IMG/VR virus record: IMGVR_UViG_3300033146_002098 | Coordinates: 16,627-42,994 of that record | Strand: one strand, 5' to 3' | Length of the DNA stretch: 26,368 nucleotides | Source: a virus | Shown: in pieces, positions 2,956 to 21,084 of the stretch | How positions within the stretch are numbered: the first letter of the stretch is position 1 | How the letters are laid out: every line of letters begins with the position of its first letter | The notes under the pieces: model-generated | Database searches by the model: none | What the model saw: only the letters and a program-made list of their open reading frames with translations | Told to the model about the DNA's origin: nothing | Program-made: the position numbers and the translations under genes

Positions 2956-5013
2956 ATGGCAAACATAAGTCCTGGTGTATATGTAAAAATTATTGATAAT
3001 AGTGAATTTATAAATGAAGTTCCATCTATTACAATGTTTGTCCCATTCTTTTCTGATAAAGGGATTGATAATAAATTGGTTTTTCTTAATGGTACTAAAA
3101 CATTATTGACTAAATTTAAAGTAGATAATATTTTAAATCAAGGAAAAGAATTTAGGGAAGGCTATTTATGTCTTAAAAATTGGTTAGCAATTTCTGGTTC
3201 TGCTTATGGTATGAGAGTTTTACCACCTGATGCAACATATTCTAATATTTTAGTTTCATTAAAATTAGATCCAACTAATAACTATTGGATTATATCATTA
3301 GAAAATGTAACTGGTGTTCAAACTAAAGCAGAAATTGAAACTATAGTTAATACTACTAGTACTACTTCTAAACCATTATATATGTTATATGGTATTGGTA
3401 GAGGTGAATACTATGATAAAGTTAGTGTTAATTTTGTTGATGCTGTAAATGCTGATGATCAATACTATATTGATATATATTTAGATGATGCAGATGGTAG
3501 TGCAGTAATGGCAGAATCTAGATTAATTTCATTTAAAGAAGATATGGTTGATGATACTGGTGAAAGTATTTATTTAAAGGACGTATTATCTTTCTATTCA
3601 GATTTAATTTATGCTAAAATGAATGATACTAATATTATTGAATATTTAAATGCTGCTTTTAATTCTATACCTATTGAAGTATTATATGAATTATCTGATC
3701 CTGCTGGTCATACTGTTATAAATAATATGGGTTATTGGACTGGTGAAAATCCTAGTGGAGCTTTTTCTGGTCATGTTAATGAAGTTGCAGTTTATGATGG
3801 TTCTAATTGGTCATTTACTGATATCGTTAGAGGTGCTGCTTTTAAATATGCTAATGCTATTTCAGTTGTTACTGATCCAAGTACTTTAACATTAGATGAA
3901 AATAATCATCTTGATAGATATTATGTAGGTAGTGGTGCTACTGGAGCTTTTGCTGGACAAGATGGTAAAGTTGCAGTATATCATCAAGCATTTGATTATT
4001 TAACTCCTGAATGGACTTTTGAAGATATGTCTAGTTATATGTTTGATGGTGATACATTAAATCCTTTTGATAGATTCACATCAATATATTCAGCAGCCAA
4101 TTCTAATGATAGTGATATTAAACATCTTAATGAAGGAAGTCAAGGTTCTTTAATGAATTCTGTAACTGGTAGAATTGATTCTAGTATTGCTACTCAATAT
4201 TTAGTAAAATCATATAATGGTGAAATTGATAGTAAAGTTATTAATACTGAATTTGTTTATTTTCCATTTACATTTTGTCCATATCCAAAAGATGTAAAAG
4301 ATGCTGCACAAGCAATGGCTCAATATATTAGAAGAGATACTATAATTATTACAGATGTTGGTGATAATAATTCTCCTGATGTTGATATATTAAGACGGCA
4401 AAATGAATTTGCTTATAATACTTATTTTGTTGCATTATATGGTAATTATACTAGAGTTTATAATTCTGATATTGGTAAAGATATTTGGGTATCACCTTGT
4501 TATCATATGTCAACAGTTATTCCTTATACAGAAACTATTGCTGAATTATGGAGTGCACCAGCTGGTATTGCAAGAGCTTCATTACCAAATGTTAAAGAAG
4601 CAAGATATGAACCAGAACTTGGTGATAGAGATAATCTTTATAGAGCACAAATAAATCCAATAGTTCATTTTAGAGAAGGTTTTATAGTATGGGGACAATT
4701 AACTTCACAAACAAAAGCTTCTAGTTTACAAGATATTAATGTAGTTGTTACTATACTTTATATTAAGAAAGCATTAAAACAATATTGTAGAAATTATGTA
4801 TTTGAAAATAATGTACAAGAAGAAAGAGATAAAATATATAATACAGTTGATGAATTTTTAAAGTCAATTAAAGATGATGGTGGTTTATTGAAATACTCAC
4901 TTGAAGTAGTAGATGATGATTATCATTATAAAAGAAAAATAGTACCTGTTAATGTAATCTTATGGCCTACTAAAATCATTGAAAAAATTGAATTGAATCT
5001 TTTCGTAAGATAA
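2956..5013 (+). CDS. Contractile tail sheath protein with two inserted repeats
   Basis: The 685-residue product has the sheath-type N-terminus SPGVYVKIID (residues 5-14). Its C-terminal part (about 600-685) has a long basic/acidic helix containing FENNVQEERDKIYNTVDEFL and ends in beta strands with VPVNVILWPTKIIEKIEL, as in phage tail sheaths. Sheath subunits polymerise around the tail tube and contract to drive injection. The central part is unusual: residues 256-287 and 316-355 hold two copies of a GAF(S/A)G..(G/N)(K/E)VAVY...W(S/T)F motif resembling the DUF2793-type repeats of phage surface proteins. These are probably an exposed insertion. The start follows AGGAGG, and an intrinsic terminator lies directly downstream. 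Identification as a sheath is secure; the identity of the insertion is inferred. Confidence 0.88.
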   Translation: MANISPGVYVKIIDNSEFINEVPSITMFVPFFSDKGIDNKLVFLNGTKTLLTKFKVDNILNQGKEFREGYLCLKNWLAISGSAYGMRVLPPDATYSNILVSLKLDPTNNYWIISLENVTGVQTKAEIETIVNTTSTTSKPLYMLYGIGRGEYYDKVSVNFVDAVNADDQYYIDIYLDDADGSAVMAESRLISFKEDMVDDTGESIYLKDVLSFYSDLIYAKMNDTNIIEYLNAAFNSIPIEVLYELSDPAGHTVINNMGYWTGENPSGAFSGHVNEVAVYDGSNWSFTDIVRGAAFKYANAISVVTDPSTLTLDENNHLDRYYVGSGATGAFAGQDGKVAVYHQAFDYLTPEWTFEDMSSYMFDGDTLNPFDRFTSIYSAANSNDSDIKHLNEGSQGSLMNSVTGRIDSSIATQYLVKSYNGEIDSKVINTEFVYFPFTFCPYPKDVKDAAQAMAQYIRRDTIIITDVGDNNSPDVDILRRQNEFAYNTYFVALYGNYTRVYNSDIGKDIWVSPCYHMSTVIPYTETIAELWSAPAGIARASLPNVKEARYEPELGDRDNLYRAQINPIVHFREGFIVWGQLTSQTKASSLQDINVVVTILYIKKALKQYCRNYVFENNVQEERDKIYNTVDEFLKSIKDDGGLLKYSLEVVDDDYHYKRKIVPVNVILWPTKIIEKIELNLFVR

Positions 5014-5301: not shown

Positions 5302-7668
5302 ATGGCCCTTACAAATGAACAATGGGATGCTATACAAACAAGAGGTGTAGATCCATTTAGAGCTGTAGAATCGAATGAAGTTAATAAACATACTAGAATT
5401 GTTTCTCTTGGAAGAGATTTAATATTAACTGGTGGAGAATGTGATAAAGGTTCTTGGAATATAGTTAATATTACTCAAGGTCAATTTATTAAAGATGATG
5501 TTTATATATCTATAAATAATACGATATTTTTATATTTTGATGATCCATTAAATTATGTAGTAGTAGATGGTAATGGAATGGATTATGCAGGTGAATATTA
5601 TGTTGTATTAGAATATGTATATTCAGAAGCTAATCCTCCACATATTGCTAAAATTAAAATTGCTAAACATTTTTCAGATATTACTGATTGGCATATTATA
5701 CTTGCTAAAGTTACTGTAATATGGAATGCTACTGAATCTAGATATGAAATTGATACTGTTGATAATTCTGTATCAACTCCTTGGAATTTTGAAAATCCTG
5801 GGTTTTCAATTTTACCTATATATCCTAATCCAACTGATGTAGTACAAGTTGGTCCTGGTAAATATATCAAATTAGACCATTCTGGTGGCGTATTATATGA
5901 AGGTGGAGTATCTCCAGCTTTTGACCCTGTGACTGCTACTGGTCAACATCGTTATGATTGGCTTTGTATTGATGATAATAAAGTTCTTTCTATTATTAAA
6001 GGAATAGAATATTCTAATCCTGGTAATCCTGCTGAATTAGCTCCGTCATTAGTAGCTTCTAAATATGGATTAGGTATTATACATATTTCAGAAACTGGTG
6101 CTGCTGGTGATGAAGTTAAAATTGAACAAGCTGATATAGTTAGATTTGCTGAAGTAATGAATTCTGGTGTTGATATTAGTGGTACTATTACTTGGTTATC
6201 ATTATTAGATACACCAAATAGTTTTTCTGGTCAGGGTGAAAATGTTGTAAGAGTTAAATCTGATGAAAGTGGTTTAGAATTTATTTCTCATTTGCAAGCA
6301 TTTGGTGTTATTAATCATGAATTAGAAACTAATTGGAATGGTACTGATGTTGAATGGCAATTACCATATATTCCTGATCATAATCATTATATAAGAATTA
6401 CATCAGATGGTGTTCAAATGGAAGAAGGTCAAGATTGGGATTGGAAATCTGGTGCTTTAGATACTATTGTATTTGCTACTCCACCTACTAATTGGACCGA
6501 CTTTATTGAAATGTATTCTGGTGGTTCTTTTACCACTTTTTTAGATTTAGTAGATACTCCAAGTACTTATGTAAATAAAGGTCTATTTAATGTAAGAGTT
6601 AAATCTGATGAAACTGGTTTAGAATTTTATGAAGATAATACTACTTCTGCAGTTGAAGTACATGATCCATTAGATGATTCTGTTTATGTTTCTGAATTTA
6701 CTTATATTAGACCTACTGATGGAAAAAGAGCTTTACATTTTCCTGGCGGAGATAGTCCTTCATTTGCACCAGTATCATCTGGACAAACTAGATATGATTA
6801 CTTAGTAATTGATGATAATAAAGTTTTATCTATTATACAAGGAGTTGAACAAGTAACTCCTACAAATGCTTATGATATGGCACCTGATATTCCTTATGAT
6901 AAACTTGGTATTGCTATAATTAGAATTACTGAAGATACTACTGTTTTAATTAATATAGATGATATAATTATAGCTACCGAAAGTCTTAATAAAGGTGCTG
7001 GACAGTATCCTACATTTTTGCAATTAAGTGATGTATCTGATTCTAATTATACTGGAATGGCTAAAGATTATACTCCTTTAGTTAATGCAGCAGAAACAGG
7101 TCTTGAATTAAAAAATAGAAAAGTGATTGAAACTGCTGGTAATCAAACTAATTCATTAAGAGTCGGTTTAGATAATATGCTAAAAACAAATATATATCAT
7201 GATGGTACTGATGGATATATTAATACTGAAACTGGTGATTTATATTTAGATTCTGCAAGTGGTGATATTAGAAGTCATGGACAAATATATAATGCTGTAT
7301 ATAATGATTATGCTGATAGTTTACCATTATTAGAAGGACAAATTAAAGTACCAGGAAAAGCTTATTGTGTAAATTCTCAAGGTAAAGCTTATATCTGTGA
7401 TAGAAGAGGTGCTATAAATACTATTGGTATTTGCTCTAATGTCTATGGATATTGTTGTGGTCAAGATGGTGAAGGATTTGTTGAAATAGGTGTTGCTGGT
7501 TGGGTTCCTGCTTTATGTGATAAACAAACTTATTTACCAGGTACTAGATTAATTGCTAATGAATCTGGATTATTAACAGAAGCTTTAACTGATGAGGAAA
7601 AATTAAATGCTATTGCTATATTCATGTATAATAGAGGAGATGGAAAATCATGGTGCAAAGTTCTATAA
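5302..7668 (+). CDS. Large modular tail fibre protein
   Basis: The 788-residue protein starts behind AAGGAGGT. It contains three copies of a tail-fibre type repeat, 'L.LxDTPxSY....VRVKSDExGLEF', at residues 298-327 and 412-442 with a divergent copy at 572-601. It also has two copies of a 90-residue module centred on RYD.L.IDDNKVLSII (from residues 214 and 494). The C-terminal domain (about 670-788) begins VYNDYADS and holds seven cysteines, a number not seen in the rest of the protein. These are hallmarks of a trimeric fibre built by module duplication, with the C-terminal domain the likely tip or chaperone-like end. Its stop overlaps the next gene by 19 bases, suggesting coupled translation. 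Receptor binding is inferred from family and context. Confidence 0.82.
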   Translation: MALTNEQWDAIQTRGVDPFRAVESNEVNKHTRIVSLGRDLILTGGECDKGSWNIVNITQGQFIKDDVYISINNTIFLYFDDPLNYVVVDGNGMDYAGEYYVVLEYVYSEANPPHIAKIKIAKHFSDITDWHIILAKVTVIWNATESRYEIDTVDNSVSTPWNFENPGFSILPIYPNPTDVVQVGPGKYIKLDHSGGVLYEGGVSPAFDPVTATGQHRYDWLCIDDNKVLSIIKGIEYSNPGNPAELAPSLVASKYGLGIIHISETGAAGDEVKIEQADIVRFAEVMNSGVDISGTITWLSLLDTPNSFSGQGENVVRVKSDESGLEFISHLQAFGVINHELETNWNGTDVEWQLPYIPDHNHYIRITSDGVQMEEGQDWDWKSGALDTIVFATPPTNWTDFIEMYSGGSFTTFLDLVDTPSTYVNKGLFNVRVKSDETGLEFYEDNTTSAVEVHDPLDDSVYVSEFTYIRPTDGKRALHFPGGDSPSFAPVSSGQTRYDYLVIDDNKVLSIIQGVEQVTPTNAYDMAPDIPYDKLGIAIIRITEDTTVLINIDDIIIATESLNKGAGQYPTFLQLSDVSDSNYTGMAKDYTPLVNAAETGLELKNRKVIETAGNQTNSLRVGLDNMLKTNIYHDGTDGYINTETGDLYLDSASGDIRSHGQIYNAVYNDYADSLPLLEGQIKVPGKAYCVNSQGKAYICDRRGAINTIGICSNVYGYCCGQDGEGFVEIGVAGWVPALCDKQTYLPGTRLIANESGLLTEALTDEEKLNAIAIFMYNRGDGKSWCKVL

Positions 7669-8576
7669 AAGAACTATATAATCCTAAACATATAATTAAT
7701 AATTTTAATGATATTGAATTTGAAAATGTTAATGTCTTTTTACATTGTATTCAATATGATTATTATAATTATATTAATAAAAATGCTTCTATTATTAAAA
7801 TCAACATAAATAGTTTAGAAGAATTAAATACGTTATCTAATTTGTTAGAAAAAACTAATCTTTATAATATGGTAACATTAAATTTAAAATTCTCTAAAGA
7901 TTGTTTTTATAAGGTTCTTGAAGATTCTAATAATAAAATTTATAATTATATATATCCAATTAATATAGACTTTATACCAGAATTAACAACTAAAGAATTA
8001 CTTGAGAAATATCCTCATTTTAAAAATTGGTTTAGCAAAAAACCAATTATAATTGATTATGAAATTGAATATAATAATTTTATTGATAGATTTAATAATG
8101 TTATAACTATATTAAGAAATAAACAATGGAGATTTTTTAATTTTAAATTTGATTTTATATCTTTTGAAGAAATGAAAATTAAAGAATATGCTTTATTAGA
8201 ATTCTGGATTAATCATATTATTAGTTGGACATCAGATTCTAGAAATAGAAATGGTTTAGTTTTTAATTATTCTAATAAATTTATTAAAACAGTCTATATT
8301 GATAATAAACTTAATCTTAAATATAATAATAATGGTGAAACATTCTTTAACATATATAATAGTATAAATAAAAATGGAGAAGATTTTTCTAATGAAGAAT
8401 TATCTAAATTACATCAATATTTAGAACTTAATGAATCTAAATGTTATTTTATTTTAAAATCTAAATTATTTAATTGGTGTATTTTAGATTTTGATCAGAA
8501 TCTAAAATTAGAAACTTCTATAAATGAGATTCCTATTATAACACAACTTGTAGGTGGATTATTAATAAATGTCTAA
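7650..8576 (+). CDS. Unknown protein coupled to the fibre and radical SAM genes
   Basis: This 308-residue protein starts inside the end of the fibre gene (19-base overlap) after AGGAGATGG, and its end overlaps the radical SAM gene by 8 bases. The sequence is rich in Asn, Ile, Phe and Tyr. Alternating strand-like and helix-like segments (for example INIDFIPEL, KPIIIDYEIEY, FNFKFDFISFEEM) suggest an alpha/beta, perhaps TIM-barrel-like, fold. It lacks the CxxxCxxC motif of radical SAM enzymes. One possibility, weakly supported, is a degenerate radical-SAM-like or substrate-recognition partner for the enzyme encoded next. Tight coupling on both sides shows it belongs to the fibre, radical SAM and cysteine-rich protein cassette. 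Function is unknown. Confidence 0.6.
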   Translation: MVQSSIKELYNPKHIINNFNDIEFENVNVFLHCIQYDYYNYINKNASIIKININSLEELNTLSNLLEKTNLYNMVTLNLKFSKDCFYKVLEDSNNKIYNYIYPINIDFIPELTTKELLEKYPHFKNWFSKKPIIIDYEIEYNNFIDRFNNVITILRNKQWRFFNFKFDFISFEEMKIKEYALLEFWINHIISWTSDSRNRNGLVFNYSNKFIKTVYIDNKLNLKYNNNGETFFNIYNSINKNGEDFSNEELSKLHQYLELNESKCYFILKSKLFNWCILDFDQNLKLETSINEIPIITQLVGGLLINV

Positions 8577-9687
8577 TTACTTTCAGATTCCAGCAACTGA
8601 TTTATTATTAACTAATAAATGTAATATGCAATGTAAATATTGTTTTGAAGATGATAAAAAATCTGGTTGCGATCTTAATGATAAAACTTTCAAATTTATA
8701 ATTGATAATAATATAGTTAAATTAATTTCTCCTTTTGGCGGTGAACCACTTATTAAGTTTCCATTGCTTTTAAATAATTATAAATATTGTAATGAAAATA
8801 AAAATATTCAAGATATACATATTAAAAATTACATAATTACAAATGGATTATTAATTGAAAAACATATCAAAGAAATTAAAGAAAATAATTTTAATTTACA
8901 AATTAGTTTAGATGGCATTAAAGAATCTAATCATAATAGAATTACAAAAACAAATATTAATAGTTATGATATAGTTATGAATGCTATTGAATTATGCTAT
9001 AAACATAAAATTAATTGGAGTATACATGGTGTTATTCTAAAAGATACTATTAAATATATATCTAGAAACTATATTTTTACTTTTAAATTATATCAAAAAT
9101 ATTATGGATTAAAAGAAACTATTAAAAGAATGGATGGTAATTGTTTTTCAATTGCCTTTGAAGAAGAATATTCAGATTCTGATATTGATTTATTTTTAAA
9201 TGAATATTCTAAAATTAATAACTATATTAATAATGTAAAAGATTTAACTAAAGAAAATAAAAATCAACTTAAAAAATATCTATTTTCACATATATCAAAA
9301 ATCTGTTCAGCAGGAATGTCTTTTTCTGCTTTAGATGGTAATTTGGATATTTATCCATGTCATAGATATTCTTTATCAAAAGATTTTAATAAATTCAAAC
9401 TTGGTAATATTAAAAATATTAAACAATTTGATTTAAAAACAATTAAATTATATAACACTTTATTTAGATTACAAAGGAGAAATCCTATAATGTATTCTAA
9501 TAATAATTTTCAATTTAAAGTTTCTAATAATAGAACTAATTTATTATATTATTATTGTCCAGCAAGTAATCATTTTATTTCTAATAATCCTTATTTTATA
9601 CCAAGTAAATATAGTATATTAATTCAGAAGTTATCAATATTATTAGAAACTTTTTTAAATAATAAGGAGGAATCTAAAAATGATTAA
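8569..9687 (+). CDS. Radical SAM protein with SPASM-like C-terminal region
   Basis: The 372-residue enzyme has the radical SAM cluster motif TNKCNMQCKYCFED with C18, C22 and C25 (CX3CX2C). It is followed by GGEP at residues 57-60, the S-adenosylmethionine-binding strand, and by ISLDGI near residue 110. The C-terminal part has C246 and C264 in the pattern C..G......DG....PC typical of SPASM/twitch auxiliary cluster regions, and C330 in a later YYYCP. The fold is that of peptide- and protein-modifying radical SAM enzymes (sactipeptide, ranthipeptide or sulfatase-maturase type). It overlaps the unknown protein upstream by 8 bases and the cysteine-rich protein downstream by 8 bases, and the latter is the obvious candidate substrate. 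Assignment to the superfamily is firm; the reaction is inferred. It is distinct from the activase NrdG at 18593. Confidence 0.85.
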   Translation: MSNYFQIPATDLLLTNKCNMQCKYCFEDDKKSGCDLNDKTFKFIIDNNIVKLISPFGGEPLIKFPLLLNNYKYCNENKNIQDIHIKNYIITNGLLIEKHIKEIKENNFNLQISLDGIKESNHNRITKTNINSYDIVMNAIELCYKHKINWSIHGVILKDTIKYISRNYIFTFKLYQKYYGLKETIKRMDGNCFSIAFEEEYSDSDIDLFLNEYSKINNYINNVKDLTKENKNQLKKYLFSHISKICSAGMSFSALDGNLDIYPCHRYSLSKDFNKFKLGNIKNIKQFDLKTIKLYNTLFRLQRRNPIMYSNNNFQFKVSNNRTNLLYYYCPASNHFISNNPYFIPSKYSILIQKLSILLETFLNNKEESKND

Positions 9688-10252
9688 TATAGGTGATCTT
9701 ATTTTACCAATTGATATAAATACAATTATAGATAAAATAAATGCAGAAGGTGTTAGAAGGGATGTTACTACTCCAGTATTTGATCATAGATTACAAGATC
9801 ATGAAATTGATAAAGATACAATATATAAAATGGCACAAAGAAATGAACTAATAAATAATAATCATTGTTATTGTGAAAGTGATCCTACTATGTCAATTCA
9901 TCATGGTGGAGATGTATTACCTTTAAATATTAATTCTTCAAATATAGATGGTGAAATTGAAGAATCAGATATTAATGGTTTACTAACTGATATTAATGCT
10001 ATGTCAGCTCAAACTAATTGTTCAATACATGAAAATCATTTTACTACATATTATTGTGATTATAATGGTTGTCATGATGGTTGCTGGTCTGTTTGTGGTG
10101 TTCATACATATGGACTTAATTGTGCTACTGATTGTCATTGTCAAAATTATTGTTCATATGTTGGGGACGGTAGTTGTTATTGTCATAATGTATGTCCATG
10201 TCAAAATGTCTGCTCTTGCGATGCTGTTTGTAATTGTGAATTTGTAACTTAA
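9680..10252 (+). CDS. Protein with cysteine-rich repeat C-terminus, candidate radical SAM substrate
   Basis: This 190-residue protein starts after AAGGAGGA inside the end of the radical SAM gene. The N-terminal 120 residues are ordinary and polar, with one HCYC cluster near residue 62. The C-terminal 70 residues hold sixteen of its nineteen cysteines. Residues 166-189 are four exact-length hexapeptide repeats of the form C-x-C-x-x-V, preceded by CHCQNYC and CHDGCWSVC. Two explanations fit: a ribosomally made substrate whose cysteines receive thioether bridges from the adjacent radical SAM enzyme, or a metal-binding, metallothionein-like tail. Position between two fibre genes suggests a virion or fibre-associated protein. 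I know of no named family. The gene is certain; the role is inference. Confidence 0.75.
   Translation: MINIGDLILPIDINTIIDKINAEGVRRDVTTPVFDHRLQDHEIDKDTIYKMAQRNELINNNHCYCESDPTMSIHHGGDVLPLNINSSNIDGEIEESDINGLLTDINAMSAQTNCSIHENHFTTYYCDYNGCHDGCWSVCGVHTYGLNCATDCHCQNYCSYVGDGSCYCHNVCPCQNVCSCDAVCNCEFVT
10175..10246 (+). repeat. Four in-frame 18-bp repeats encoding CxCxxV
   Basis: Four consecutive 18-base units each encode Cys-x-Cys-x-x-Val. The bases differ between units while the amino acid pattern is kept, so selection acts on the peptide pattern rather than on the DNA. Confidence 0.8.
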
Positions 10253-10285: not shown

Positions 10286-11506
10286 ATGGGACTTAATAAA
10301 ATACCTGGTGATAAGCTAACTGATCATAATAATTTAGAAGGCTTACAAGGTGGTTCTTCTACTGAACGATATCATTTAACATTAGCTGAAAAAAACGCTA
10401 TTGGTAGCGGTTCTTCTATTGAAACAACTTATCCGATGTTAAAATACTGTAAACAAGATAATTTTGGAGAATTATCAGGTAATGATATAGATTATTATAT
10501 TGATTGTGTTAGTGGTGATGATTCTACTGGTGATGGAACTAGTTCTAATCCTTTTAAAACATTAAAAAAAGCAATAGAATCATCACCAACATTATGGATA
10601 GGCAATTTTAATTTTATAATAATTAATGATATTTATACTTTAGATAGTATGGAGTATATTACTTTAAAAGGTGCTACAAGAATTGATATACCAATACCAA
10701 TTACTTATACTATTAAATCAGAAAGTGGTGGAACATTAACTATCTCTAGAGATTCTAGTTTAGCAGATGGTAATGCTTCTGGTTTATATATTAGTAATTC
10801 TTATAGATCTCTAAGTAAAGAAGAAGTATTGGTAGGAATAATTGCTTTAAAAATTGATGAATGCCAATTACATATCACATGTGCTAATAGTATTAGTTGG
10901 GCAGATACCCCTTCAAAACTCACATTTGCAAAACAATCTAGTTCTGTTGATGGTACTTTTACATTATTTAATTTTAGTGATACTTTTTGGTATTTAGTAG
11001 ATGGATCTTCTACTGTTACATTAACTATTGATATGACTGGTATTAATAGTGGTAATAATTATAGACCTTGCTTAATTCAGGTTCATTCTTTGAGATTTCC
11101 AGTTGGTTATACATATACTGGGAAATTAGTTATTGATACTTTAGATCCTACACTAGAAGTTCCAGCATTAGCACATGTAAATACTACACAAAGAGTATCC
11201 GATGGATTTTGGTTTGTAAATCATAGTGTATTATTAGAAATTAAGAATGCTTATGTAGGATTATTATTTGGATCATTAGGTATATCATCTCATCCAGCAA
11301 TAGTTAGAATTGATAATACTTCTAAAAATAGTAATATAATGTTAGCAAATTCATTAGCACTAACTAATTGTAATGAAGGAATTCATTTAAGAAGAAATAT
11401 AGTTGCAAATTATCAATATTATGGAACTGAGCCAGTATTTACGGGTTGCACTACTGATTATGTCTTAGATGCTAATGCTCAACTAATTCCAAGTGGTACT
11501 ATTTAA
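10286..11506 (+). CDS. Tail fibre / receptor-binding protein with beta-helix start
   Basis: The 406-residue protein starts behind AAGGAGATAT. Residues 11-40 contain LTDHNNLEGLQGG and YHLT, a signature found near the N-terminal or shaft region of many phage fibres. Residues 69-97 read DYYIDCVSGDDSTGDG then NPFKTLKKAI, matching the opening of right-handed parallel beta-helix domains of the pectate-lyase-like type (dyYvd..sGsD...Gt...pFkTi..Ai). The rest is repetitive strand-forming sequence, consistent with a beta-helix. It is therefore a likely receptor-binding or surface-polysaccharide-acting fibre. No catalytic residues can be assigned by eye. An intrinsic terminator follows the gene. Confidence 0.78.
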   Translation: MGLNKIPGDKLTDHNNLEGLQGGSSTERYHLTLAEKNAIGSGSSIETTYPMLKYCKQDNFGELSGNDIDYYIDCVSGDDSTGDGTSSNPFKTLKKAIESSPTLWIGNFNFIIINDIYTLDSMEYITLKGATRIDIPIPITYTIKSESGGTLTISRDSSLADGNASGLYISNSYRSLSKEEVLVGIIALKIDECQLHITCANSISWADTPSKLTFAKQSSSVDGTFTLFNFSDTFWYLVDGSSTVTLTIDMTGINSGNNYRPCLIQVHSLRFPVGYTYTGKLVIDTLDPTLEVPALAHVNTTQRVSDGFWFVNHSVLLEIKNAYVGLLFGSLGISSHPAIVRIDNTSKNSNIMLANSLALTNCNEGIHLRRNIVANYQYYGTEPVFTGCTTDYVLDANAQLIPSGTI

Positions 11507-13250: not shown

Positions 13251-16200
13251 ATGTATACTCCAGAAAAAATACAATTATTTATTAGAAAGGTCAATAAACT
13301 TAGATTTCTTCCTAATACTAAAGAAAATAGAAATAAATATAAAATTATATATCTACCAGAAAATATCAAATTTGATAAAGTATATCCTTTAATGAACTTA
13401 TATAAACAAGATATTAGGAGAGTTGTTAATCCAAGATTAAAAATTTCTGGTATGGGTACTATTAATATAAATACAGATACTAATAAAGCTATTAAAAAAT
13501 TAGGACTATTAATATCAGTTAATAGAAAATCAGTTGAAAATACTAATCAGAATTATATTATTGATACAACAGAAATAATCAAAAAAATTATTACTGTTAA
13601 TAAAAGAAATTTTATTTCTAGTGTAAGTAATAGATTATATACTTCTTTATTAGATAAGTTAGTTACTCCTTTAAATAAAAATAAAAAAGAAACTACTTAT
13701 AAAAATATTATAATGTATTGCATGGATGTAGGTTCACCAATAGAACCAGATATTAAAAGAAGAGTTATATTTCCATTATTATTTTTTTATATTAGAAATA
13801 AAATACAAATACCTGGTATAGATTATATTTTTTTATGTTTAGTAAATTCTAAAAAACCTGATAAGTTACCAGTATACATAAAAATTTATGATTCTAATAT
13901 TAAAGGTAATTTCTATTCAAGAATAATGAATATTTTTAAAAGTATCAAATTAGATAATACTGAAATTGAAAATTATGTAGATGATCTTTCACAAAATATA
14001 ATTAAAAATGAAACAGATAATTCTAATATGTTAAATAATATATATCAGAAAATTACCAATAAGAAATCTGATGAAGTAACTGATGTTGAAAAATATAAAA
14101 TCAATAATAAGATTTCATCTGCAATATCAATATATTTAAAAGATAATCCAGAAAATACAAATTTATTTACAGATATATTAGGTAAAAAATCTGATTCTGT
14201 TAATGAATTAATATTGAAACATGCAATAATAGCAACTGCAACTATATATGCAGCAACTAGAAATAAAGAAAAAAGTGATAAAATTTTAAAAATTGGATTA
14301 AAATCAAGTAAGAAAACTAATACTAAATTAAAAAATAATGATATTAATATAATTAAAAAATTTACTGATTTAACAGATACTTATATAGATAGAGTAATAG
14401 ATAAATTTACTTTTCAGAATTTATCTCAAGATCCATTAATATCTAAATTAGATTTACCAAAGATAGTAGACGATAAAGTTCCTGATGAATTATTTTATAA
14501 GAAACAATATGATTATACTGTGGAATTAAAAAATGATATAATTAAATTATTTAAACAATTTGAAACAAAACAATTTCCATTAAAATTAATTAGTATTAAA
14601 GCTAGTAATAAACAAAATGAAAATGAAATTAAAAAAACAGTATATATGGTTTTTGATATTACATTACAAGATGATAAAGGTAAACAATTTAATATACAAT
14701 TAATGTTACCAAGTATAGATAGTAATGGTAATTTTTTAATAAATGGACATAAGAAATTATTAATAAATCAATTAATATTAAAGCCAGTATATTTTCCAAA
14801 ACCAAGAGTATGTAAAATAACTTCTTTTTTCTCAACAGTAACAATTGAAAATAGATATGTTAGACAAATTTATTATTTAAGAATTTATCTAGTTGGTTTA
14901 GTATTGTCTATGTATAATTATTTAGCATATACTACAAGATCATTAGGTGGTCCTGATTATATATTTAAAAGATTAGGATTAACTTATCAAATTAGTGATA
15001 ATACTAAAGAAACAACTAAAATTAAAAGAAGTACTAAAAATAATTGGTATATAAATTTTTTTAATCAAGGTACTATATTTTTTAATAAAGCTAAAATGGA
15101 ATCTTCACCGTTATTAAGATCATTATATTATGGTATGAAAATGGTTAATTATAAAAGATTAAAAATTACATTACAACAATTTTTAGATCCTAATTTTCAA
15201 TCAACAATAATAATATTAGGAACTGGAAAAAAGAATGCTCCTTATAGATTAGATAATCTTAATGCTGGATTCTTAGATCAAGTAACTAAAGAATTATTAG
15301 AAAATGATAATTATCCTACAAAGTTACTTGATTTATTTTGGTGGGCTATGGAAAAAGTTCAAACTGATTATGTAGATGTTAGAACTGATTTGTCAAAACA
15401 AAGAGTTAGATCAACAGAAGTTTTTACTCATGGAGTATATAAGCAATTATTAATAGCATATAATCAATATTTAAATAAAAGATTATCTGGTATTGAAGAT
15501 GCTAATTTTGAAATTGATCCAATGCATGTATTTAAACAAATTGCTAATTCTCAATTAGTTAGAATGAAAAATAATATTAATCCAATGCAAGAATTAACTG
15601 ATATGAGTAGAACTACTTTAGTAGGTTTAGGTGGTATAGCTAATTCTAATGGAGCTACAGGTTCTTTGAGAACTATTAATGATAGTTACTTTGGTACATT
15701 AGCTCCTGCTGATACTCCAGAAGGTGGTGCTATTGGGATATTAAATCAATTAACTGTTAATAGTAGTTTTAAAAATACAAGAGGAGAATTAAATCTTAAA
15801 CAAATTAATAATAATGAAAAAGCAGGTTTATTATCAGTTAGTGGTGCTATTGTTCCATTCTGTAATCATAATGATGGAGCTAGAATGATGATGGCTACAA
15901 ACCAAACTAGACAGATTGTATCATTAATGAATCCTGAACCACCATTAGTTCAAACTGGTTATGAAACAATTTTAGCTAGTTTTTTAAGTGATGCTTTTTT
16001 AAAAAGAAGTCCATTTAATGGAACAATAGTTGAAGTTACTAATAATTATATAATGATAAAAGAAAAATCAAAACAACATCAAAAAGAAAATAAAATTAAA
16101 ATTGATTTACAACCTGTTTTATTACCTTCTGGTCAAGGTATTCATGGAGTTTCATATTTTAATCCAAAAGTAAAAGTAGGTCAAAAGATAAAATATAATC

Positions 16201-17678
16201 AAGTTATTGCTGAAGGTGCTACTATGGTTGATTCTACTATATCATTAGGTAGAAATTTATTAGTAGGTTATATGCCATATAAAGGTTATAATTTTGAAGA
16301 TGGAATAGTAATCAATTCTAAATTATTAAAACAAAAAAGAATGATATCAAAGCATTTACAAAAAATTGAATTTCATATACCAGAAAATTCAAAAATATTA
16401 TCAACACCAGGAAATGATCCTAATAGAAAAGATATTAGTTCTACATTAGAAGAATTATTTAATATTACAAATGATGAAGGCGGGATAAAATATTCAGCTG
16501 GTGATACTATAATATCATATTTACCAAAACAAATATCTGAAATGATTGAATTAGATATTGATGAAATGACATCAGATGGAATTATATTAATAAAGGCTCC
16601 TTATGACGGTAGAATAATAGATATTGAAGTGAGTAGTAATGAATCTATAGATGATCATCCAAAATTAAAAAAATTATTTTTGACTAGTAATCAATTAAAA
16701 AAATCAAAAGGAAAAGCAGTAATTCCAAATGGTAAATATAAATTAAAAGATGAAACATTTAAAGGAACTATAATTAATATATTATATGAATATAAAGATG
16801 AAGGAATTATACTTGGTAATAAATATTGTAATAGACATGGTAATAAAGGCACAATTTGTTATATAGAAGATAAAATGCCTATTACTCCTTGGGGAGAAGA
16901 ATTAGATATTATATTTAATCCACTTGGTATTATTTCTAGAATGAATATTGGTCAAATTTTAGAATTATATTGTGGTTTAATTTGTAGAGAATTAAGAAAT
17001 AGAATGGTTAAAAATTCTTCTAAAAAGAATGTAACTAGTTTACTTAAAAATATATATCAGGATATATTAGATAATAGTCCTAAGAAAGTTGTATCTAAAT
17101 CTATGATTAAAATTATAAATAATATGAGTACAACTGTTTATAAAAAATGGTTTGAAAATAATGTTAAAAATAGAATTGGTTTTTCTTTAATATTTCCTAC
17201 GTTTAATACTCCAACTATGAAAGATATTTCAAAAGTATTAATAAAATTAAAACTAAAAGATTCATATATATTAGATTTACCAAGTTATGGACCAGGAGTT
17301 AAAACAAAATTCCCAGTAGCTGTAGGTTACTTATATATTTACAAATTAGAACATATGGCTAAATTTAAATTATCATCGAGATCAACCGCAAAGTATTCTA
17401 GTAAAACTATGCAACCAACAGTAGGTAAAAAAAATATTGGCGGTCAAAGATTTGGTGAATTTGATTCATGGGCTTTATTTAGTTATGGAGCTAAATCATT
17501 AATAAAAGAATTTTATAGTTTATCATCTGATGATGTTAGTAATAAAAATAAAGTAATATCTGATATTATACAAGATGGATTAGCTCATTTACCAGATGAA
17601 GCTAAAACAACTCCAACAAAGGATTTATTAGAAATGTATATTAAAATGATGATGTTAGATATACAAGGAGAAATGTAA
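13251..17678 (+). CDS. Phage DNA-directed RNA polymerase beta-subunit homologue
   Basis: The 1475-residue protein carries the RpoB conserved blocks in order: GNFLINGHKKLL (493-504), NPMQELTDMSRTT (777-789), ADTPEGGAIG (820-829), SGAIVPFCNHNDGARMMMA (864-882), LGRNLLVGYMPYKGYNFEDG (999-1018), GNKYCNRHGNKG (1189-1200) and GGQRFGEFDSWAL (1397-1409). The two lysines of the catalytic region (K1191 and K1199) are kept. Beta and beta-prime together form the active centre; no beta-prime or sigma gene is in the window. Compared with bacterial beta, which has the first block near residue 130, this protein has roughly 360 extra N-terminal residues of unknown fold and a shorter remainder. In phiKZ/AR9-type phages beta is split into two genes, whereas here it is one chain. 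The start follows AGAAAGGAAA, and the stop overlaps the next start (TAATG). Confidence 0.92.
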   Translation: MYTPEKIQLFIRKVNKLRFLPNTKENRNKYKIIYLPENIKFDKVYPLMNLYKQDIRRVVNPRLKISGMGTININTDTNKAIKKLGLLISVNRKSVENTNQNYIIDTTEIIKKIITVNKRNFISSVSNRLYTSLLDKLVTPLNKNKKETTYKNIIMYCMDVGSPIEPDIKRRVIFPLLFFYIRNKIQIPGIDYIFLCLVNSKKPDKLPVYIKIYDSNIKGNFYSRIMNIFKSIKLDNTEIENYVDDLSQNIIKNETDNSNMLNNIYQKITNKKSDEVTDVEKYKINNKISSAISIYLKDNPENTNLFTDILGKKSDSVNELILKHAIIATATIYAATRNKEKSDKILKIGLKSSKKTNTKLKNNDINIIKKFTDLTDTYIDRVIDKFTFQNLSQDPLISKLDLPKIVDDKVPDELFYKKQYDYTVELKNDIIKLFKQFETKQFPLKLISIKASNKQNENEIKKTVYMVFDITLQDDKGKQFNIQLMLPSIDSNGNFLINGHKKLLINQLILKPVYFPKPRVCKITSFFSTVTIENRYVRQIYYLRIYLVGLVLSMYNYLAYTTRSLGGPDYIFKRLGLTYQISDNTKETTKIKRSTKNNWYINFFNQGTIFFNKAKMESSPLLRSLYYGMKMVNYKRLKITLQQFLDPNFQSTIIILGTGKKNAPYRLDNLNAGFLDQVTKELLENDNYPTKLLDLFWWAMEKVQTDYVDVRTDLSKQRVRSTEVFTHGVYKQLLIAYNQYLNKRLSGIEDANFEIDPMHVFKQIANSQLVRMKNNINPMQELTDMSRTTLVGLGGIANSNGATGSLRTINDSYFGTLAPADTPEGGAIGILNQLTVNSSFKNTRGELNLKQINNNEKAGLLSVSGAIVPFCNHNDGARMMMATNQTRQIVSLMNPEPPLVQTGYETILASFLSDAFLKRSPFNGTIVEVTNNYIMIKEKSKQHQKENKIKIDLQPVLLPSGQGIHGVSYFNPKVKVGQKIKYNQVIAEGATMVDSTISLGRNLLVGYMPYKGYNFEDGIVINSKLLKQKRMISKHLQKIEFHIPENSKILSTPGNDPNRKDISSTLEELFNITNDEGGIKYSAGDTIISYLPKQISEMIELDIDEMTSDGIILIKAPYDGRIIDIEVSSNESIDDHPKLKKLFLTSNQLKKSKGKAVIPNGKYKLKDETFKGTIINILYEYKDEGIILGNKYCNRHGNKGTICYIEDKMPITPWGEELDIIFNPLGIISRMNIGQILELYCGLICRELRNRMVKNSSKKNVTSLLKNIYQDILDNSPKKVVSKSMIKIINNMSTTVYKKWFENNVKNRIGFSLIFPTFNTPTMKDISKVLIKLKLKDSYILDLPSYGPGVKTKFPVAVGYLYIYKLEHMAKFKLSSRSTAKYSSKTMQPTVGKKNIGGQRFGEFDSWALFSYGAKSLIKEFYSLSSDDVSNKNKVISDIIQDGLAHLPDEAKTTPTKDLLEMYIKMMMLDIQGEM

Positions 17679-18592: not shown

Positions 18593-19300
18593 TTGATAGT
18601 AGGATTTCATGGTACTTCATTAGTAGATTATCCAAATCTAGTTAGTAGTGTAATATATTTATCTGGTTGTAATTTGCATTGTCCATATTGTTATAATGCA
18701 ATAATAGTCAATAATAATAAAAAAACAAATGTCTTTTCTGAAGAAGAAATAATTAATCAATTAAAAATCAGAAAATTATTTATTGATGCTATTGTAATAA
18801 CAGGTGGGGAGCCAACATTATATAAAGATTTAATACCACTAGTAAATAATATAAAAACAAACGTACCAGAAATAAAAATTAAATTAGATACTAATGGATT
18901 AAGACCAGAAATTTTTTCAAAATTAGTTGATATAATAGATTATGTTGCAATGGATATAAAAGATGATCCATATAATTATTTTCAATATTTTTCTTCTAAT
19001 GATGTTTCTAAACAAGTTCTAGAAAGTATTAATTTATGTCGTAAAGTAAAAAATTATGAATTTAGAACTACTATTACAAAGAAAACTTTTACATTACAAT
19101 CCGCTATTGAAATATCAAAATACTTAAATAAAAAAGATAATTACTATATACAAAATTTTCAATATCAACTTAATCCTGAATTATTAATTAATCATGGATT
19201 ATTTGATAATGATAATGAAAGAAGTTTTTCATTGTCAGAAGCAAAAAAAATTACTAAACCAATTAGTGATATATGTCAAATACATTTTAGAGGATTTTAA
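18593..19300 (+). CDS. nrdG: Anaerobic ribonucleotide reductase activating protein (radical SAM)
   Basis: The 235-residue protein uses a TTG start, 9 bases after AGGAGG; no upstream ATG fits. The N-terminus MIVGFHGTSLVDYPN and the cluster motif SGCNLHCPYCYN (C26, C30, C33; CX3CX2C) are typical of NrdG/PflA-type activases. They are followed by ITGGEPT near residue 66 for S-adenosylmethionine binding. NrdG cleaves S-adenosylmethionine to abstract a hydrogen from the glycine of NrdD, which is required for anaerobic deoxynucleotide synthesis. It sits between the separate glycyl radical protein (30 bases upstream) and nrdD (38 bases downstream), fitting one functional cluster. The length is somewhat above the shortest phage NrdG. 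NrdG versus a PflA-like activase is settled by the context. Confidence 0.88.
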   Translation: MIVGFHGTSLVDYPNLVSSVIYLSGCNLHCPYCYNAIIVNNNKKTNVFSEEEIINQLKIRKLFIDAIVITGGEPTLYKDLIPLVNNIKTNVPEIKIKLDTNGLRPEIFSKLVDIIDYVAMDIKDDPYNYFQYFSSNDVSKQVLESINLCRKVKNYEFRTTITKKTFTLQSAIEISKYLNKKDNYYIQNFQYQLNPELLINHGLFDNDNERSFSLSEAKKITKPISDICQIHFRGF

Positions 19301-19338: not shown

Positions 19339-21084
19339 ATGAATATACAGATAAATAAAAATCAAATAATACCACAAAGATCAGTTCAATTTGAACCAAC
19401 ACCTGCATTTATAAAAAAATCTATTAACTTAGTAAACGATTATATTTCTAAAGATGATTGGAGAGTTAATGAAAATGCTAATGCTGGGTATTCTATACAA
19501 GGATTAAATAGTCATATTACTACTTATGTATCTGCATTATATTGGTTATATGAAATATATAATGAAGATATAAGAAATGCACATACAAGAGGAGAAATGC
19601 ATATACATGATCTTGGATATTTAACAGCATATTGTGCAGGATGGAGTTTGAAAGATTTATTACTTAAAGGATTCGGTGGAGTATATGGAAAAATAGCTTC
19701 AAGACCTGCAAAACATTTTAGAGCTATATTAGGACAAATATGGAATTTTATGTATTCAATGCAGGGAGAAGCTGCTGGAGCTCAAGCATTTTCATCTTTT
19801 GATACATACCTTGCACCTTTTATTAAATTTGATAAATTAAATTATTCTCAAGTAAAACAAGCTATGGAAGAATTTATATATAATATGAATATTCCAACTA
19901 GAGCAGGATTTCAAACTCCATTTACAAATATAACAATGGATTTACAATGTAATTCTGTAATGAAAGACCAACCAGTTATATATGCTGGTGAATATATTAA
20001 TCATACATATTCTGAATTTCAAAAGGAAATGAATATGATTAATAAAGCATTTTGTGAAGTTATGATGCAAGGTGATTCTAATCAAAGAATATTTACATTT
20101 CCAATACCAACTTATAACATTACTAAAGATTTTGATTGGGAAGATAAAAATTTAAAATCATTATGGGAAATGACTGCTAAGTATGGAATTCCTTATTTTG
20201 CAAATTATGCTAATTCAGATATGAGCCCTGAACAAGCCACCTCAATGTGTTGCCGCTTAAGAATTGATCATACTGAACTTAATAAAAGAGGTGGTGGACT
20301 TTTTGGTTCTAATCCATTGACTGGTAGTATAGGTGTTGTTACTATTAATTTACCAAAGCTTGGTTATCTTGCTTATAGTAATAATGATTTTTATGATAGA
20401 TTAGAAAAAGTAATGTATCTTGCAAAAGATTCTTTATTAATTAAAAGAAATATTATTGAAGATTTAACTGAGAATGATATGTATCCATATATAAAATATT
20501 ATTTATCTGATATTAAGAAAAGATTTAATAAATATTGGGCTAATCATTTTAATACAATAGGTATTATAGGAATGAATGAATGTTGTTGAAATAGAATACA
20601 TAAACCATTATCACATCCAGATGGTAAAAAGTTTGCTTTAGAAGTATTAGATTTTATGAGAAGTAAATTATTAAAGTATCAAAAAGAAACAAAGTTGATG
20701 TGGAATTTAGAAGCAACCCCAGCCGAGGGCATGGCTTTTCGCTTAGCAAAAAAAGATAGATTAAAATATAAAAATATAATTACATCAGGTACGGAAGATA
20801 ATCCTTATTATACTAATAGTACTCACTTACCAGTAGATTATACTAATGATGTATTTGAAGCATTAACACATCAAGATGAATTACAATGTAAATATACTGG
20901 TGGTACTGTATTTCATGCTTATTTAGGAGAAGCTATAGATGATTGGAGAACTTGTAGAAACTTAGTTAGAAAGATTGCTGAAAATTTTAAGTTGCCATAC
21001 TATAGTATATCGCCCGTATTTAGTATTTGCCCAAAATGCGGGTATATATCCGGAGAGCACGATACTTGTCCCAATTGTGTATAA
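19339..21084 (+). CDS. nrdD: Class III ribonucleotide reductase large subunit, interrupted by one in-frame TGA and lacking the glycyl radical end
   Basis: Read through one TGA (20587-20589, codon 417), this encodes 581 residues of anaerobic ribonucleoside-triphosphate reductase, which reduces NTPs to dNTPs. Residues 87-102 (MHIHDLGYLTAYCAGW, C99), MCCRL (303-307, with the thiyl cysteine), GGGLFGSNPLTGSIGVVTIN, GMNECC (411-416), NLEATPAEG and a zinc site (C564, C567, C577, C580) are all present. There is no N-terminal ATP-cone, so no dATP shut-off is expected. Without readthrough the parts would be 19339-20589 and 20590-21084; the first internal ATG of the second part, at 20656, has no good ribosome binding site. 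The protein ends one residue after the zinc site; the glycyl radical segment is encoded at 18410. Three short patches have higher G+C than their surroundings. Confidence 0.85.
20587..20589 (+). other. In-frame TGA codon inside nrdD
   Basis: TGA follows Cys-Cys in GMNECC and is followed by Asn, with clear NrdD homology in the same frame on both sides. Candidates are recoding (selenocysteine or suppression), a true nonsense mutation, or a base error. The only nearby stem I find is ACCAT/ATGGT (20604-20608 and 20621-20625) with a 12-base loop, which is too weak to call a SECIS element. Confidence 0.85.

Follow-up and report, generated by a model that had tools for sequence, protein, structure and literature searches.

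The closest described relatives of the system reported here are PapB (NF047865) and CteB, the SCIFF maturase (TIGR03974, PDB 5WGG), which combine a radical S-adenosylmethionine (SAM) core and a CSAG...YPCH SPASM-type motif with an adjoining gene for a Cys-rich substrate. CteB is a thioether-forming enzyme, and its auxiliary cluster AuxI has an open coordination site that is thought to accept a substrate Cys. Radical SAM/SPASM enzymes are likewise paired with repeated-Cys proteins, to judge by family name, in the CXXX-repeat (TIGR04115) and Cys-every-fifth (NF038107) systems. Here we describe a three-gene cassette of related design in a stretch of viral DNA of 26,368 nucleotides (the window; bases 16627-42994 of the 42,994-base contig IMGVR_UViG_3300033146_002098). 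Behind a tail-fibre-like gene it encodes a partner protein (P0001), a radical SAM enzyme (P0002) and a Cys-rich protein (P0003). Unlike PapB and CteB, the cassette lies in a phage tail operon, includes a predicted pseudo-radical SAM partner and has, across its known versions, a substrate-type protein of 190-316 amino acids (aa); P0002 scores ~106 bits where PapB requires 340 and keeps three of the seven SPASM Cys. Against the CXXX-repeat and Cys-every-fifth enzyme families it scores 40 and 51 bits (cut-offs 350 and 600), and those families are bacterial and differ in repeat spacing.

The cassette is real and conserved, and is one case of a wider association between radical SAM genes and Cys-repeat genes in viruses. 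We think it fairly probable that it produces a Cys-repeat protein associated with the tail fibre and matures this protein through a radical SAM enzyme and a catalytically dead partner. The type of chemistry is already known; its application to the fibre protein of a phage, together with a dead partner, was not found described in the open-access literature, in which we also found no paper linking a phage radical SAM enzyme to a fibre or Cys-repeat protein. The features of the locus are as follows.

5302-7668, plus strand: tail-fibre-like protein, 788 aa, with a C-terminal 'YNDYAD' domain containing 7 Cys, probably not a substrate (PHROG 11660 tail protein, 2.5e-13)
7650-8576, plus strand: partner P0001, 308 aa, predicted to have a degenerate (pseudo) radical SAM/SPASM fold, CxxxCxxC absent (AlphaFold model, structural matches)
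8569-9687, plus strand: radical SAM enzyme P0002, 372 aa, with a reduced SPASM-like C-terminus (nearest curated family, PapB ranthipeptide maturase)
8620-8643, plus strand: CNMQCKYC, residues 18-25, the CxxxCxxC motif for the SAM-binding [4Fe-4S] cluster (invariant in four cassette enzymes)
9304-9558, plus strand: region with conserved SPASM-type C246, C264 and C330, a putative three-ligand AuxI site; AuxII Cys absent
9664-9671, plus strand: Shine-Dalgarno sequence aaggagga of the Cys-rich gene, within the radical SAM gene
9680-10252, plus strand: Cys-rich protein P0003, 190 aa, 19 Cys, putative substrate and fibre-type virion protein
9713-9760, plus strand: N-terminal motif of P0003, DINTIIDKINAEGVRR, common to ~30 other phage Cys-repeat proteins (motif profile)
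10019-10237, plus strand: Cys-dense C-terminal region of P0003 with (CxCxxV) repeats at its end
10286-11506, plus strand: next fibre-like gene, 33 bases 3' of the cassette (PHROG 4577 tail protein, 1.1e-9)

The four successive open reading frames (ORFs) from fibre to Cys-rich gene overlap by 19 (fibre/partner), 8 (partner/radical SAM) and 8 bases (radical SAM/Cys-rich), as a first-pass annotation made from the sequence alone had claimed in giving overlaps of 8-19 bases. Shine-Dalgarno sequences are clear before 7650 (gaggag) and 9680; that of 8569 is weak, with aggtgg lying far upstream. This is not a chance ORF pattern, because all three cassette proteins have clustered homologues with 23-35% identity in other phages. 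These were found in IMG/VR with a profile from P0002 and four relatives (loci L133 and L134/L135) and with a second profile (L213); when viral_contigs was scanned with P0002, P0003 and the RNA polymerase beta subunit of the phage as single sequences, no relatives appeared. Three deeply divergent phage lineages outside the window thus carry homologues of all three proteins, and in two of them the order behind the fibre gene is identical to that in the window. L133 has a fibre gene followed by a partner (301 aa), a radical SAM enzyme (367 aa) and a Cys-rich protein of 316 aa with 61 Cys and the end CSCEYN; L213 has a very long fibre-like gene, a partner (306 aa), a radical SAM enzyme (391 aa) and a Cys-rich protein of 258 aa with 42 Cys and the end CGCEYN. 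The order in L134/L135 is fibre, radical SAM enzyme, Cys-rich protein (212 aa, 21 Cys, end CVCEYN), glycosyltransferase-like gene, partner and second radical SAM enzyme. Within the compared 19-kb stretches the only other matches to the window were the C-terminus of the L133 fibre and one RecA-like gene, which marks them as distant phages with the cassette in common. Support for a single clade of the four cassette enzymes is 100/100. This recurrence of the gene set, and in two lineages of its order, supports the earlier proposal of a peptide-modification cassette among virion genes that probably acts on a fibre-associated Cys-rich protein.

Two further observations concern these loci. The second radical SAM gene of L134 (11441-12229) stands right behind the partner gene, in an operon that also holds the glycosyltransferase-like gene. 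In L133 (10014-10870) and L213 (10909-11325) the Cys-rich gene is directly followed by one for a small CxxxCxxCC protein, YkgJ-like by eye and with no Pfam match.

Beyond the cassette itself, Cys-repeat genes of diverse design (CxCNYCT, CPCNCDF, CHSDCHSN, CxCVxRT, CQSCQ) stand at many of 80 viral radical SAM loci. The contigs behind all of these linkage counts are metagenomic and mostly incomplete. With one strict regular expression, a same-strand Cys-repeat ORF was found within 5 kb of the radical SAM gene at 31 of 69 non-redundant loci, and on the opposite strand at 1; the count of 31 is a lower bound, since the expression misses P0003 itself. A reverse test, independent of the enzyme, used the DNA pattern CxC[ND][YF]CxCxC[ND][YF]C and found 54 viral stretches, an effective number that is lower because several are near-copies. 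A radical SAM gene was present in 45 of the 54, on the same strand in all that were measured and within 523 bases in 36 of 44. None was seen in 120 control viral stretches (1.1 Mb), for which we reused the output of a search with a generic (CxCxxx)4 DNA pattern that had returned low-complexity DNA only. When the whole contigs of ten records were searched (the nine stretches lacking the enzyme, and L267, whose pattern ORF is incomplete), six contained radical SAM genes. Wide occurrence of the Cys-rich protein without the enzyme, which the first-pass annotation had named as speaking against its proposal, was therefore not what these counts showed; the four exceptions are fragments. In 84,980 prokaryote genomes the same pattern occurred in three stretches, two of them with a real Cys ORF and both of these also with a radical SAM gene and fibre-type genes.

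A few observations stand beside these counts. Cys-repeat genes may be in tandem, four in L249 (4721-7285) and two in L226 (12814-13958); their N-terminal parts vary, whereas the Cys repeats are nearly identical. In a separate group of viral contigs (L136, L137, L139-L142, L144, L208) a protein of 187-191 aa encoded just upstream of the radical SAM gene ends in CTCTCTCT...CCSECDCGD. Weak radical SAM matches in human faecal 'Bacteriophage sp.' contigs were set aside, as the four inspected look like host-type or sulfatase maturases and have no Cys-repeat neighbours.

P0003 carries 17 of its 19 Cys in the last 80 residues. The window has a single (CxCxxx)4 match, and 100 shuffled versions have none. 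We built a motif profile from 32 further Cys-repeat proteins, the cassette excluded; it ranked P0003 first of 3905 sequences (E 1.8e-4), and no copy among 500 shuffled ones entered the 25 best matches. P0003 therefore fits the group that we define here by a Cys-repeat region with an INxExxRR motif on its N-terminal side and by a radical SAM gene nearby. Several of the Cys-repeat proteins are tied to fibres by Peptidase_S74, the domain that serves tail fibres as an intramolecular chaperone. The L241 repeat continues directly into this domain (E 2.8e-8), and PHROG tail-fibre families also match L241; in L154 the domain is found in the ORF next to the Cys-repeat gene, and C-termini resembling S74 (SDxRLKxxI...GVMAQEL) are visible in many other Cys-repeat proteins. 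Because its N-terminal motif is common to many of the Cys-repeat proteins and fibre genes flank it, we infer from shared architecture and location that P0003 is itself linked to fibres. The S74-like domain is split in L154 (12054-13029), L219 (11399-12273) and L224 (11293-12095), where the Cys protein ends after 'SDxxLKxxIxYM/I' and the rest lies in the next ORF; this is possibly a programmed break or a separate chaperone subunit.

The seven Cys in the C-terminal domain of the fibre in the window had been put forward as a second target. This domain is 38% identical over 138 aa to that of the fibre preceding the cassette in L133, where only about one of the seven aligns to a Cys, and we consider modification of these seven Cys unlikely.

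P0002 belongs to the radical SAM superfamily (PF04055, 52.3 bits against a cut-off of 29.5), with C18, C22 and C25 invariant. Each of the four cassette enzymes scored highest against the curated PapB ranthipeptide maturase family, followed by other peptide maturases; all four missed every curated peptide-maturase cut-off. The best match among solved structures is CteB (5WGG/5WHY). Of the seven Cys that hold two auxiliary clusters in a complete SPASM domain, P0002 retains C246, C264 and C330, at the CSAG, YPCH and C-P-A/S positions, and has lost the CxxC, the middle Cys and the last Cys, so that the first-pass designation as a radical SAM-SPASM enzyme stands in its first half and needs qualifying in its second. 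Since the retained residues correspond to what we take, from the anSME and CteB structures, to be the AuxI ligands, P0002 would hold a single three-ligand auxiliary cluster. An identity with viperin was rejected, since pVip scored 47.8 bits, less than PapB.

The partner, P0001, had no match to any family when Pfam, PHROG and NCBIfam were searched. An AlphaFold model built from four homologues shows a beta/alpha barrel, after which come a beta hairpin and a helix (predicted local distance difference test, pLDDT, 67; predicted template modelling score, pTM, 0.68). The eleven PDB structural alignments with the highest Z were all to radical SAM enzymes (Z 6.8-8.8), led by TigE (Z 8.8, 237 residues aligned, root-mean-square deviation 5.0), CteB (8.6) and anSME (7.7) and including DesII and SuiB (6.8-7.0); the first unrelated barrel had a Z of 6.7. 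In the viral structure library BFVD, phage radical SAM proteins ranked top. An earlier model from three sequences (pLDDT 59) had failed to separate radical SAM enzymes from other barrels. No Cys is conserved across the four homologues and CxxxCxxC is absent. We hold the radical SAM/SPASM fold with moderate confidence, and the protein that the first-pass annotation called an unknown partner is likely a catalytically dead radical SAM/SPASM paralogue. This identity is drawn from the modelled fold, as a sequence profile comparison with the radical SAM family gave no signal. By analogy, it may act as a substrate-binding or stabilising subunit.

These observations suggest the following sequence of events. 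P0002, probably as a heteromer with its dead paralogue P0001, would recognise the N-terminal part of P0003, possibly through the INxExxRR helix. Under anaerobic conditions it would then modify residues in the Cys-repeat region. The most likely bonds are thioethers between Cys and carbon, of the kind made by CteB and PapB, and a Cys of the substrate may ligate an open site on the single auxiliary cluster. The cross-linked product would be incorporated into the tail fibre or baseplate, and the benefit would be a rigid shape resistant to protease and redox conditions. We lean, narrowly, towards the broader view that the tail-fibre proteins of many large phages receive radical SAM cross-links in their Cys-repeat segments from enzymes of the phage itself, which would make them the first viral structural proteins to be matured by radical SAM chemistry; in the window the enzyme would work with a dead radical SAM paralogue.

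Several points weigh against this interpretation. P0003 has no Peptidase_S74 domain and matches no Pfam or PHROG family; S74 was found only on relatives with other repeats. The residues that follow the Cys vary. P0002 falls short of the PapB equivalog cut-off (106 against 340 bits), and its activity cannot be taken for granted, because its SPASM domain is incomplete. The fold of P0001 depends on a model of pLDDT 67 built from four sequences. Finally, four fragment contigs (60, 23, 16 and 13 kb) have a Cys-repeat gene without a radical SAM gene; in two of them the stretch ends inside the Cys gene, and the remaining pair is similar to L294, in which the enzyme is encoded ~3.2 kb downstream of the Cys-repeat gene.

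P0003 might instead be modified by P0002 without entering the virion, as an intracellular or secreted effector (a bacteriocin, superinfection or anti-defence factor) resembling a ribosomally synthesised and post-translationally modified peptide (RiPP) and expressed late by chance. An S74-less protein served by an enzyme from a family of RiPP maturases, whose nearest plasmid relatives are located in RiPP clusters, would suit such an effector. A RiPP cluster comprises a short precursor with a leader, a protease and an exporter, however, and the cassettes in the window, L133, L213 and L134 show no gene for an exporter or a protease; the 190-316-aa products of the substrate-type gene are long for a RiPP, the Cys-rich gene lies among fibre-type genes in all four lineages, and related Cys-repeat proteins bear the fibre chaperone. 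We regard an effector as unlikely. It also seems improbable that the Cys escape modification and serve a fibre protein as disulphides or metal sites, while the radical SAM enzyme acts on another virion protein or a small molecule. Cys cross-links are reported to stabilise the tail of Agrobacterium phage Milano, as disulphide networks without a dedicated radical enzyme (PMC10811340), and the YkgJ-like genes after the Cys gene in L133 and L213 would be in keeping with this reading, but a tight, recurrent linkage of the enzyme to many different Cys repeats would not be expected with another substrate.

As a further alternative, the radical SAM genes could be auxiliary metabolic or host-fitness genes, as has been suggested for the Campylobacter phages CP220 and CPt10. 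The 2010 genome paper describes their 11-12 radical SAM genes as 'highly unusual', proposes a metabolic benefit and reports a 21-bp intragenic repeat in CPt10_1891; its cited sections leave the repeat and the radical SAM genes unconnected (PMC2853527). For the window we consider a metabolic role very improbable, since the gene is located inside an overlapping fibre operon, its pairing with Cys-repeat genes is conserved and its best match is to peptide maturases, not metabolic enzymes. The '21-bp repeat' protein of the Firehammerviruses (PHROG 26958; CPt10_1891, CPT_0180, CP21_105) is itself a Cys-repeat protein of the CxCNYCT type, which we found in CPt10, CP220, CP20, CP21, F379, IBB_35 and others (15 records). 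As in the window, the Cys-repeat protein of these cultured phages (CPt10, L290 10001-11605; IBB_35, L289 8001-9605) is encoded among tail genes, here between those for the tail tube and the baseplate, and has a radical SAM gene near it, ~2.3 kb downstream. They differ from it in the repeat, and no homologue of the 308-aa partner was found beside the repeat gene. Searching named phages by tblastn with Cys-repeat proteins of other than the Campylobacter type gave no match, although the low-complexity filter may hide matches. Mass spectrometry of the IBB_35 virion detected 38 proteins (PMC3322345).

If fibre proteins are indeed cross-linked in this way, phages would use oxygen-sensitive radical enzymes to modify adhesion proteins post-translationally, a route of virion maturation that we did not find described. 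Some of the 11-12 radical SAM genes in CP220 and CPt10, puzzling since 2010, could be explained in this way, which can be tested in cultured phages. A large natural collection of Cys-repeat scaffolds, in many repeat designs and with enzymes to match, would also become available.

The phage in the window encodes a contractile T4-like tail, with the sheath gene at 2956-5013, and its own RNA polymerase beta subunit (13251-17678). It also has genes for an anaerobic ribonucleotide reductase, NrdG (18593-19300) and NrdD (19339-21084), so its host is probably anaerobic, which is compatible with an oxygen-sensitive radical SAM enzyme. The NrdD gene contains a single in-frame TGA (20587-20589, NECC-TGA-NRIHKP). 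The hairpin downstream is not better than in shuffled sequence; both halves of the protein match NRDD, and the TGA is either a selenocysteine candidate or a genuine break.

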